From Marinobacter sp. MDS2 (GTDB lineage Bacteria > Pseudomonadota > Gammaproteobacteria > Pseudomonadales > Oleiphilaceae): a stretch of 64,000 nucleotides of DNA. Positions 2,912 to 62,294 of the stretch are shown in pieces. Both the position numbers and the translations under genes were made by a program. Each line of letters begins with the position of its first letter. The stretch's first letter is position 1. The DNA is taken from the NCBI RefSeq assembly GCF_030718085.1, contig NZ_JAVAJF010000001.1, forward strand, positions 1,240,001 through 1,304,000. The letters run 5' to 3'. The notes beneath the pieces are model-generated. The model was not told where the DNA came from, made no database searches, and saw nothing but the letters and a program-made list of their open reading frames with translations.

Positions 2912-2936
2912 TTCTTTTAGTATTGGTGCAAGGCTA

Positions 2937-3040
2937 GGTGTCGGGGTGGTCTTGCCGAGAACCGCTACGAGCACATCCATGTGCGCTTCTCTCAGGCCAT
3001 CCTTGGCCTTCGACATTCTCGGCAAGACCACCCCGACACC
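2937..3040 (+). repeat. Variable-stem/conserved-core repeat, copy A
   Basis: A 25-bp perfect inverted repeat (2937-2961 and 3016-3040, beginning GGTGTCGGGGTGGTCTTGCC) encloses a 54-base centre at 2962-3015. With one mismatch the stem extends outward a further five positions (GGCT/AGCC). The centre contains two small hairpins, GCACATCCATGTGC and AGGCCATCCTTGGCCT. The same centre occurs at 62180-62233 (one base different) and, inverted, at 41606-41659, but the stem sequence is unrelated in each copy. It lies between the importer operon and astE. No T tract follows. Confidence 0.85.
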
Positions 3041-3114
3041 CAGCCCCGAACCTGTTCCTGGGTCTAAGTTCGGCCCGCTCCGGTAATCACAAAAACTATA
3101 CGGGAGAGGGTTTC

Positions 3115-41521: not shown

Positions 41522-41580
41522 AGTGCCACAAAAAGTGCACTTGCTAGGCAGCTGTAGCAGCCACACAGAGTCTGATGCGG

Positions 41581-41684
41581 AGGTTGGATGAGCCCTTCCC
41601 AAAAGTCTTGAGGGCCAAGGACGGCCCGAAAGAAGCGCACATGGATGTGCTCGTAGCGTCTTTTGGGAAGGGCTCATCCGGCCT
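41581..41684 (-). repeat. Variable-stem/conserved-core repeat, copy B (inverted)
   Basis: A 20-bp perfect inverted repeat (GGATGAGCCCTTCCCAAAAG at 41586-41605 with its complement at 41660-41679) extends by five more positions, two of them G-T. It encloses a 54-base centre at 41606-41659. Read on the minus strand, the centre matches copies A and C at 47 of 54 positions against A. Among the changes, one base pair of the inner hairpin goes from A-T to G-C (positions 33/48 of the core). It lies between convergent genes, before the shared terminator. Confidence 0.85.
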
Positions 41685-41718
41685 CAGCACGACCCCCAAG
41701 CTAAACCGCATAGAAACG

Positions 41719-44228: not shown

Positions 44229-44498
44229 TTAGCGACGCAGACCCAAACGCTTGATCAACTCAAGGTAACGGTCAGCATTCTTACGCTTCAGGTAGTCCAG
44301 CAGCTTACGACGCTGGTTTACCATACGGATAAGACCACGGCGGGAATGGTGATCCTGCTTGTTGGCCTTAAAGTGATCCTGCAGCTTGTTGATGTTAGCG
44401 GTCAGCAGAGCCACCTGAACTTCAGGGGAACCGGTATCGCCTTCACCTTGCTGAAAATCGGTAACGATTTGAGCTTTCTCACTGGCAGAAAGTGCCAT
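44229..44498 (-). CDS. rpsO: 30S ribosomal protein S15
   Basis: Ribosomal protein of 89 residues, universal length. The sequence [20 protein letters not shown] through [19 protein letters not shown] is typical. The ATG at 44498 has GAGGTGTAAT before it. It binds 16S rRNA in the 30S platform and represses its own translation in related bacteria. Gene order truB-rpsO-pnp is conserved. Confidence 0.98.
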
Positions 44499-44575
44499 AT
44501 TACACCTCATTGTTTGCGATGCTGAAAAATCCGGCCGAACCGCGCATCTCTACAGCCCGGCTACACAGCGGCAGC

Positions 44576-61979: not shown

Positions 61980-62017
61980 AAAAAAGCGAGACTGAGTGGT
62001 GGCTCGGTCCCGCTTTT
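61980..62017 (-). promoter_or_regulatory. Terminator-like hairpin in the carAB leader
   Basis: On the minus strand AAAAGCGGGAC / GTCTCGCTTTT (one G-T pair) with a 14-base loop is followed by T6, 68 bp before carA. It lies downstream of the proposed carAB promoter, so it can act as an attenuator; it may also stop dapB readthrough. Confidence 0.6.
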
Positions 62018-62061
62018 CTAGAAACTTTTCAAAGGTACGCTTGGTGCAAAAAAATCGACTT

Positions 62062-62090
62062 ATTCTACGAATTTTGTCGCTTTTTGTCCA
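62062..62090 (-). promoter_or_regulatory. Probable carAB promoter
   Basis: TGGACA (62090-62085), a 17-bp spacer and TAGAAT (62067-62062) on the minus strand, each 5 of 6 to consensus. The early transcript contains a T7 run (62054-62048 region). Confidence 0.65.
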
Positions 62091-62158
62091 TCGCGAATTA
62101 CGATCTGGCTTGATATAGATGACCTTTGGCTCTGCAGCCCTAGGCTCCGGCAGTGGCT

Positions 62159-62254
62159 CGTGGGTTCGCGTTCCGAAAACCGCTACGAGCACATCCATGT
62201 GCGCTTCTCTCAGGCCATCCTTGGCCTTCGAAATTTTCGGAACGCGAACCCACG
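62159..62254 (+). repeat. Variable-stem/conserved-core repeat, copy C
   Basis: A 21-bp perfect inverted repeat (62159-62179 and 62234-62254, beginning CGTGGGTTCGCGTTCCGAAA) encloses a 54-base centre at 62180-62233. The centre differs from copy A at one position only, yet the stem shares no similarity with that of copy A. Beyond the perfect arms a few further positions pair. It lies between the dapB stop and the carAB promoter. Confidence 0.85.
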
Positions 62255-62294
62255 ACCCCCTACCTCAGAATCGGCCGATCAACCCTGTTGCAAA

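Follow-up and report, generated by a model that had tools for sequence, protein, structure and literature searches.

How can a dispersed repeat keep the two arms of its stem paired when the letters of those arms differ from copy to copy? The question is raised by three repeats in the window, i.e., the whole 64-kb stretch of Marinobacter DNA analysed here. The initial annotation described them as sharing a 54-base core with two hairpins, and this description was borne out both by their positions and by a covariance model of the element. Indeed, the unfiltered model gave three strong matches in the window (101.8-109.2 bits), accompanied by weaker reverse-strand echoes of the same places (26.2-30.1 bits), the next best match otherwise scoring 16.2 bits. 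The features are listed below, the strand being that of the RNA.

2934..3043, minus: copy 1, whole element (54-nt core and 28-bp arms), covariance model score 109.1 bits
2962..3015, minus: copy 1, conserved core of 54 nt
2995..3008, minus: copy 1, hairpin A (GGCC AAGGAU GGCC on the RNA strand), loop with CANGGANG
2971..2984, minus: copy 1, hairpin B (GCAC AUGGAU GUGC on the RNA strand), loop with CANGGANG
2932..2961: copy 1, left arm of the closing stem, which has 30 pairs with 1 mismatch; arm letters not common to the other window copies
3016..3045: copy 1, right arm of the same stem
41578..41687, plus: copy 2, whole element, covariance model score 101.8 bits
41613..41626, plus: copy 2, hairpin A (GGCC AAGGAC GGCC)
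41637..41650, plus: copy 2, hairpin B (GCAC AUGGAU GUGC)
41586..41605: copy 2, perfect 20-bp part of the 5' arm
41660..41679: copy 2, perfect 20-bp part of the 3' arm
62152..62261, minus: copy 3, whole element in a 28-bp frame (perfect stem of 22 bp), 109.2 bits
62213..62226, minus: copy 3, hairpin A (GGCC AAGGAU GGCC)
62189..62202, minus: copy 3, hairpin B (GCAC AUGGAU GUGC)
62158..62179: copy 3, left arm (perfect over 22 bp)
62234..62255: copy 3, right arm (perfect over 22 bp)

Copy 1 is flanked by a BPD_transp_1 permease gene, whose stop lies about 20 bp before it, and by an AstE/AspA-type gene about 70 bp beyond it. Copy 2 is located between a hydrolase gene (stop 41521) and pnp, which are convergent, and is followed by a shared terminator-like hairpin (CCCGCC..GGCGGG), while copy 3 has dapB (stop 62295) and carA on either side. 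Two further structured regions were noticed near these copies. The S15 leader (RF00114, 46.2 bits), the only Rfam family reaching its cut-off in the window, was found at 44442-44563 in the rpsO-pnp region, copy 2 being directly behind pnp. Upstream of carA (61982-62100, minus strand), about 110 nt are strongly conserved in 30 loci (L237-L266), with or without the element; these conserved letters (AAAAGCGAGA..CCCGCTTTT..CGCTTGGTGCA) are probably a carA leader or attenuator.

Read on the RNA strand, which is the opposite of the strand used in the initial annotation, the element comprises a stem of about 28 bp, the 54-nt core (hairpin A, a linker and hairpin B) and the returning arm, with weak outer motifs before (AAGTTTG) and after (CnCCAAA) the stem in 70 elements. 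RNA folds of the three window copies gave z-scores of -9.2 to -12.2 against shuffled sequences. Among 204 distinct elements from 176 loci, 200 had an arm score of at least 14 and 194 a 54-nt loop; this set was reduced to 197, 195 or 188 by leaving out elements that lay close to a contig end, had short arms or a different loop length, or carried no genome label, and the same exclusions reduced a larger set from 236 to 233 or 160. Pairing in 197 elements, mostly from unrelated loci, was 0.92-1.00 over pairs 0-20 (0 being the pair at the core) and 0.82-0.90 over pairs 21-26, and then fell to 0.65, 0.47, 0.37 and finally 0.25 at pair 30. The combination of perfect pairing and differing arms was confirmed, since in the same 197 elements a mean of 14.96 of the 16 outer pairs (10-25) were paired, against 6.17 of 16 when arms were swapped between copies. 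The view that the arms are unrelated between copies holds for the outer part, which is near random between loci (0.37 identity), but not for the inner 10 bp, which are semi-conserved (0.65-0.66 identity between different loci), nor for a semi-conserved GG/CC located about 17-18 bp from the core. A stem that ends at a roughly fixed length with free sequence would suggest a protein or enzyme measuring duplex length rather than a copying accident.

The element is present in high copy number. A search of the 3.45-Mb genome of origin, in which the window occupies C1:1240001-1304000, with the core pattern (up to 3 mismatches), a check that had been proposed with the initial annotation, gave 26 copies, all with a long arm stem of 20-30 bp and 0-2 mismatches, and none when the pattern was read backwards. 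The covariance model, which includes diverged forms, identified 71 distinct places in this genome (150 of 1307 first-look candidates scored). These correspond to 72 matches, one palindromic place being matched on both strands; all had E-values of 1.5e-6 or better, with none from there to the limit of 0.01. Genome contigs provided at least 120 stretches with the core pattern, which fixes hairpin B, and all those listed belonged to Marinobacter. By this pattern, the element was found in 31 of 58 genomes, comprising 31 of the 37 from the same genus and none of the 21 from other families. By the covariance model, it was found in 60 of 61 Marinobacter genomes, 16 of which hold at least 71 copies, and order-wide (E 0.01) in 118 of 293 genomes and 58 of 118 genera, the top per-genome counts being at least 14. 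Some genomes, such as G069, G012, G020 and G026, hold 0-3 copies each, indicating that the elements are dispensable. Carriage by phages or plasmids was rejected, as the element had no match in plasmid and phage records and the core pattern had no exact match in viral contigs. In two copies (L189, at locus 1 in G022, and G000 C1:1754246-1754417), about 80 bp are inserted within the core, splitting a hairpin, and the flanking stem is still paired.

Which molecule is under selection can be read from the imperfect pairs. Under DNA pairing alone, a one-sided transition would give G·T and A·C about equally. Over stem pairs 0-23, 96.6% of which are Watson-Crick, G·U exceeded A·C on the GGA strand by 120 to 11 (233 of 236 elements). 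The excess was also found when one element was taken per orthologous group (32:1, 64 groups) and within the genome of origin (59:4 over 28 pairs, in 69 of the 71 copies, the palindromic copy and one copy without a suitable locus being left out). This asymmetry indicates that selection acts on RNA from that strand. The fold itself is supported by covariation: with 70 sequences, 97.1% of cells were paired and the score was 0.518, compared with 0.146 for shuffled and at most 0.144 for slid sequences, and with 41 sequences including diverged members it was 0.695, compared with 0.204 and at most 0.183, respectively. Changes on both sides were observed in 17 of 18 stem pairs in the former set and in all 18 in the latter. 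Thus, among the possibilities raised in the initial annotation, selection for an RNA structure is the one that the mismatch asymmetry and the conserved CANGGANG loops bear out, and they also name the strand.

On the RNA strand, both core hairpins display the motif C-A-N-G-G-A-N-G, and copies vary mainly at the N positions. Hairpin A lies outside the search pattern; in the 188 elements with a 54-nt core its first A was invariant (188), N was T in 119, A in 50, G in 18 and C in 1, and the GGA was G in 187, G in 187 and A in 188, followed by T in 164, C in 23 or A in 1, and then by G in all 188. Hairpin B reads C-A-N-G-G-A-N-G as well in these elements, an invariance partly made by the pattern, which fixed part of this hairpin in the genome-contig set; the covariance model, in turn, was trained on conserved loops. 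A-N-GGA-N loops thus occur in both hairpins of nearly all 188 elements. Exactly two CANGGANG were present in each of the 48 cores read, out of the 71 copies of the genome of origin, despite widely differing hairpin stems, one of them being AAAATCA..TGATTTT. Diverged copies, recovered through orthology or the model, also kept CANGGANG when GCACA..UGUGC had changed to GUACA..UAU, with forms including GUACAGGGAAGUAU and CUACAGGGACGUAU; the exception among the 41 rows of the diverged set is L188, which has GAA.

The longer form of the recognition motif of CsrA/RsmA is ACANGGANGU. By its letters, the loop motif C-A-N-G-G-A-N-G is a CsrA/RsmA recognition site, and the genome of origin has one CsrA gene (91.9 bits). 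A(N)GGA and a secondary AGAGA are given as CsrA/RsmA recognition sequences in the cited part of PMC4066749, and many copies also have AGAGA in their linker. Much of the core beyond the loops is likewise invariant in the 188 elements, which is more than CsrA alone would need.

The history of the element was followed at orthologous sites anchored by both flanks (4 of 30 at locus 1 and 1 of 60 at loci 2 and 3 lacked one flank and were dropped). All three window loci are occupied in some Marinobacter genomes and not in others. The 26 readable spacers of locus 1 comprised 19 with the element (one with an insert and one diverged), one with a remnant and six with none; the 29 of locus 2 comprised 19 with the element (six of them diverged and missed by the pattern), one with a remnant and nine with none; and the 30 of locus 3 were divided into 15 with and 15 without. 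Empty spacers include, at locus 1, those of L200, L203 and L206 (34 bp) and of L194 (14 bp); at locus 2, five bare terminators (L220, L224, L229, L231, L234); and at locus 3, L252-L257. Remnants in L201, L228, L251 and L265 point to losses, and no clear recent gain was found among the spacers compared at the three window loci. Other arrangements were also seen at these sites. Locus 2 in L225, L226 and L232 (G059, G002 and G004) carries a different palindromic repeat instead (GGGGTCAGA..TCTGACCCC or GGGGACAGACT), present in several copies; G004 has 22 Y1_Tnp matches. At locus 1, L181 and L182 (G061 and G018) show a second left half of the element upstream of an intact one.

Flank comparison defined 37 orthologous groups. 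Arms at the same locus in different genomes had identities of 0.54 (outer) and 0.86 (inner), compared with 0.37 and 0.65-0.66 between different loci (160 elements, 29 genomes), showing that arms are inherited. In 12,480 comparisons of places not linked through both flanks, outer-arm identity exceeded 0.78 only where one flank was homologous; arms are therefore not shared beyond this level without flank homology, and recent copying of whole elements to new places is not seen. The initial suggestion that one arm is copied from the other at insertion does not agree with these data, since in many species a given locus retains arms of its own, which diverge. The arms are inherited and re-paired in place, not made at insertion.

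Arms turned over rapidly, and their changes were mostly two-sided. At flank identities of 90-95%, outer-arm identity was only 0.66, two-sided changes affecting 125 pairs and one-sided changes 25 (25 comparisons); the corresponding values were 312 and 31 at flank identities of 85-90%, and 9 and 7 above 95% (four comparisons). Below 95% flank identity, both-side changes were 5-10 times as frequent as one-side changes among orthologue pairs; these comparisons, like those on transversions and adjacency below, are not independent of each other. About half of the double changes involved transversions, which cannot pass through G·U, and adjacent double changes numbered 433 against a position-matched expectation of 357 (sd 12.4; highest of 500 simulations 396; 144 comparisons). 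Differences may come in blocks between close relatives: L084 and L133 differ by seven letters in the left arm and six in the right, most of them in a single stretch of the stem, and L104 and L119, with 95.6% identical flanks and the same core, differ at 13 of 28 left-arm positions. Import of alleles by recombination can explain part of such differences. Nevertheless, the claim that point mutation cannot account for the arms proved too strong. In the most similar stems (pair identity of at least 0.85, 25 comparisons), 13 of the 16 single changes were G·U steps and adjacency was 2 against 1.2 expected; such single steps are what ordinary stepwise compensation would give.

Rebuilding of arms by conversion, another of the early proposals, may have occurred: the two-sided excess, the transversions, the clustering and one palindromic copy agree with it, but the 9:7 ratio in the four closest pairs and, in the most similar stems, the prevalence of G·U steps and the lack of clear clustering do not. 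The palindromic copy (C1:967502-967569 in the genome of origin) has lost half of its core and forms a perfect palindrome through hairpin B, whereas L066, at the same place, has a full core; it looks like a natural fold-back product. It is possible that template switching in hairpin DNA helps arm changes, a process reported to give multi-base compensatory changes that restore RNA hairpin stems in the cited part of PMC8794818. That work concerns rRNA and microRNA stems, whereas the process is proposed here for a high-copy bacterial family with many parallel stems. Core identity was nearly equal at the same locus (0.911) and between different loci (0.898-0.906), and a single orthologous group may contain different core types. 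Gene conversion causing the cores to evolve in concert could produce this pattern, as could constraint combined with repeated change at few sites.

The arrangement of copies along the genome is also regular. Close pairs followed a strict order in 24 of 25 cases of a first set and in 23 of 23 without the palindromic copy, one of the 25 being this copy on both strands and another this copy with its neighbour. All 8 close pairs of the genome of origin showed the same order (one involves the palindromic copy, oriented by its better score), and the two sets overlap in the pairs of this genome. Within a pair the GGA strands point away from each other, with model ends 63-126 bp apart in the genome of origin; a transcript crossing a pair would read GGA in one core and UCC in the other, the two being inverted repeats with the potential for mutual masking. 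Inside the pair gaps of L151 (215 bp) and L160 (214 bp) there are REP-like hairpins (GTAGGTCGGATTAG..CTAATCCGACCTAC), and L117 has a third, decayed-looking element copy in the gap between its two elements. The initial statement that copies lie only between genes is nearly correct: by a crude gene caller of our own, 12 of 184 elements, and 6 of 70 in the genome of origin, overlap an ORF.

The position of the copies relative to genes allows a reading in which the element is a REP-like 3' end element, whose long hairpin protects or ends neighbouring messages and whose GGA loops are secondary. For 132 of 171 elements (41 of 63 in the genome of origin) the gene end closest to the element is the 3' one, and the median gap to the nearer stop codon is 34-47 bp in the three commonest arrangements, as such a role would predict. 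However, both orientations are used, the stem is followed by no U-tract, and conservation among diverged forms is highest in the loops, making this reading unlikely. Relative to the neighbouring genes, unpaired tandem copies were sense in 47 cases and antisense in 27 (p 0.027; 16 and 12 in the genome of origin), a weak bias that supports a simple sense 3' UTR role at most weakly. An autonomous sRNA with a sigma-70 promoter was not supported either: a crude scan of 62 elements revealed no promoter enrichment 5' of the RNA strand (score 6.57, the 3' side giving 6.57 and the opposite strand 6.62), and T-runs (T5+) occurred in the 60 nt on the 3' side of the GGA strand in 1.25% of 160 elements. 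A5+ runs were seen in 20% of the 160 elements in the same 60 nt, perhaps partly reflecting the CCAAA motif.

Two readings place the origin of the stem in DNA. A mobile palindromic DNA element (MITE/REP-like) that gains its arms each time it inserts, the target flank being copied onto the core by fold-back, would be in keeping with the high copy number, the uneven occupancy (each of the three window loci is empty in some genomes), the strict layout of close pairs, the fact that arms were not found shared between unrelated loci, and the copy at C1:967502-967569 that looks folded back. It is decidedly improbable, since arms are inherited (0.54 against 0.37 in the outer part) and change in place in a compensated manner, unrelated loci share a stem end at about 28 bp, several unoccupied sites (L201, L228, L251, L265) keep remnants and look like losses, and a DNA mechanism offers no reason for the excess of G·U over A·C. 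Copy number did not correlate with Y1_Tnp (Spearman -0.02 in 61 genomes, 16 of them counted as at least 71), which led us to reject a link to a RAYT/Y1 transposase and goes against the travelling RAYT gene that had been suggested for checking, and the searches of plasmid and phage records and of viral contigs were negative, as described above. Fold-back insertion was accordingly rejected as the main origin of the arms, one copy looking like its product. The same strand asymmetry (120:11 and 59:4) speaks against a DNA-level hairpin or cruciform, serving as a nucleoid, replication or recombination site and kept palindromic only through template-switch correction, with no RNA role. The low number of imperfect pairs, the predominance of clustered two-sided changes, about half of them transversions, and the layout of pairs would all suit such a site. 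Nevertheless, loop variation is concentrated on the N positions of an RNA-protein motif and 13 of the 16 single changes in the most similar stems are G·U steps, so that we give this explanation very little credence.

We consider it likely that the copies are TwoAYGGAY-like structured RNA elements (see below), each presenting two CsrA-type sites, the whole family serving scattered buffering or control by CsrA. Judged from its sequence features, it looks like a scattered CsrA-binding, sponge-like system and not like a transposon copying its own arms. We infer that CsrA would bind the element and be sequestered by it, with the stem contributing as follows. The closing stem of about 28 bp, largely free in sequence and constrained in pairing and length, presents the two-hairpin junction, in which each loop carries C-A-N-G-G-A-N-G, the putative site for the CsrA/RsmA dimer; two sites per element would fit one dimer. 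The likely role of the 71 mostly intergenic copies would be to bind and buffer CsrA or to place neighbouring transcripts under its control, and the long duplex may provide stability or a handle for RNase III. Arms would differ because they belong to old loci under selection for pairing only, the core being held by function, and their mostly two-sided and clustered changes may be helped by template switching in hairpin DNA. Arms that are unlike each other yet perfectly paired are thus explained by RNA-level selection on pairing, with possible help from template switching.

A more specific proposal, which we regard as possible but doubtful, is that of a distributed sponge in Marinobacter and many relatives in its order. 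In place of a single RNA with many sites, each of about 70 loci would supply one RNA able to bind a dimer, either processed from a local transcript or remaining part of it; CsrA activity would read the summed transcription of these loci, and the stems would be kept perfect by template switching under RNA-level selection. If so, dozens of parallel natural stems per genome would be available to measure template switching. If the element binds CsrA, titration would be organised unlike the textbook single-sponge model. The many orthologous and paralogous stems that stay paired despite turnover of their letters also offer a direct test of compensatory change, opposing stepwise G·U to template switching.

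Several known systems share features with this family. CsrB, CsrC and RsmX/Y/Z are encoded by one to few genes, each RNA with many GGA sites and its own promoter and terminator. The element resembles them in the GGA hairpin loops for CsrA, binding being predicted here from the motif, but differs in having two sites per element, tens of loci, no promoter signal in the crude scan and few T-runs; the PrrB_RsmZ model exceeded its cut-off in none of 12 genomes and had no match at E 0.1 in the genome of origin. REP/BIME/REPIN sequences are palindromes scattered between genes, frequently close to 3' ends and arranged as inverted pairs. The element, although also dispersed, intergenic, palindromic, near 3' ends and in inverted pairs, differs from REP/BIME/REPIN with RAYT in its largely free, locus-specific stem letters, in RNA-level selection and in having no Y1 transposase link, 18 of the 27 genomes without Y1_Tnp holding 40 or more copies. 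Integron attC sites, arrayed beside an integrase and with conserved R sites, have covarying stems too, whereas the copies described here are dispersed on both strands and form no array. Matches to microRNA families (mir-3158 and others) were rejected, the long stem alone being matched. In the open-access literature, six forms of the core letters matched, among the matches listed, only papers apparently unrelated by title or abstract. By the listings, none of the papers on Marinobacter palindromic or intergenic repeats dealt with the element, and the matches listed contained no work on Marinobacter with CsrA or RsmZ and no description of a dispersed family among CsrA sponges or repetitive elements.

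The closest known system is the TwoAYGGAY RNA motif (Rfam RF01731; PMC2864571, cited in part), which is grouped with CsrC in Rfam clan CL00106. According to the cited passages of PMC4333381, it has a tandem GA and a poorly conserved external stem, and its binding to CsrA was proposed on motif grounds, validation being called in progress. The element likewise has, on the same strand, two adjacent GGA-loop hairpins and an outer stem weakly conserved in sequence, and it shares the tandem-GA feature, as G-A and A-G face each other in a 2+2 internal loop below hairpin A in all three window copies. The loop consensus A-Y-GGA-Y is matched by hairpin B (AUGGAU) in the three window copies, whereas hairpin A (AAGGAU or AAGGAC) has a second letter other than Y. 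The near-perfect stem of about 28 bp, the 71 copies per genome and the strict pair layout are not among the TwoAYGGAY features in the cited passages.

The two models overlap only in part. The RF01731 gathering score of 43 bits was not reached in the window, and the genome of origin gave 9 matches, the best at 41.5 bits; RF01731 was also absent from the Rfam matches of copy 1 up to E 10. It nonetheless aligned end to end, with the same topology and on the same strand, with L307 (36.6 bits) and L230 (36.0 bits), both below the cut-off of 43. Among 194 genomes of the order, 41 matched RF01731 at E of 0.01 or less and 16 passed the cut-off, with no match in 14 control genomes. The model of the new element overlapped RF01731 on the same strand at 10 of 20 loci fetched with RF01731 (L323-L328, L337, L340, L341 and L342) and had no match (E 0.05) at the other 10 (L329-L336, L338 and L339), which makes the tie to the RF01731 family partial. 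Loci from other genera common to both models passed the RF01731 cut-off (L325 and L326 with 52.7, L337 with 43.9). The window copies are thus best seen as an unlisted high-copy branch of the TwoAYGGAY kind and not as formal members, so that a computationally defined RNA family has here a branch with 71 copies in a 3.45-Mb genome and about two CsrA-type sites in each. Judged against the open-access literature covered, what is new in this branch is its copy number, the proof of the strand, the dynamics of the arms and the paired layout.
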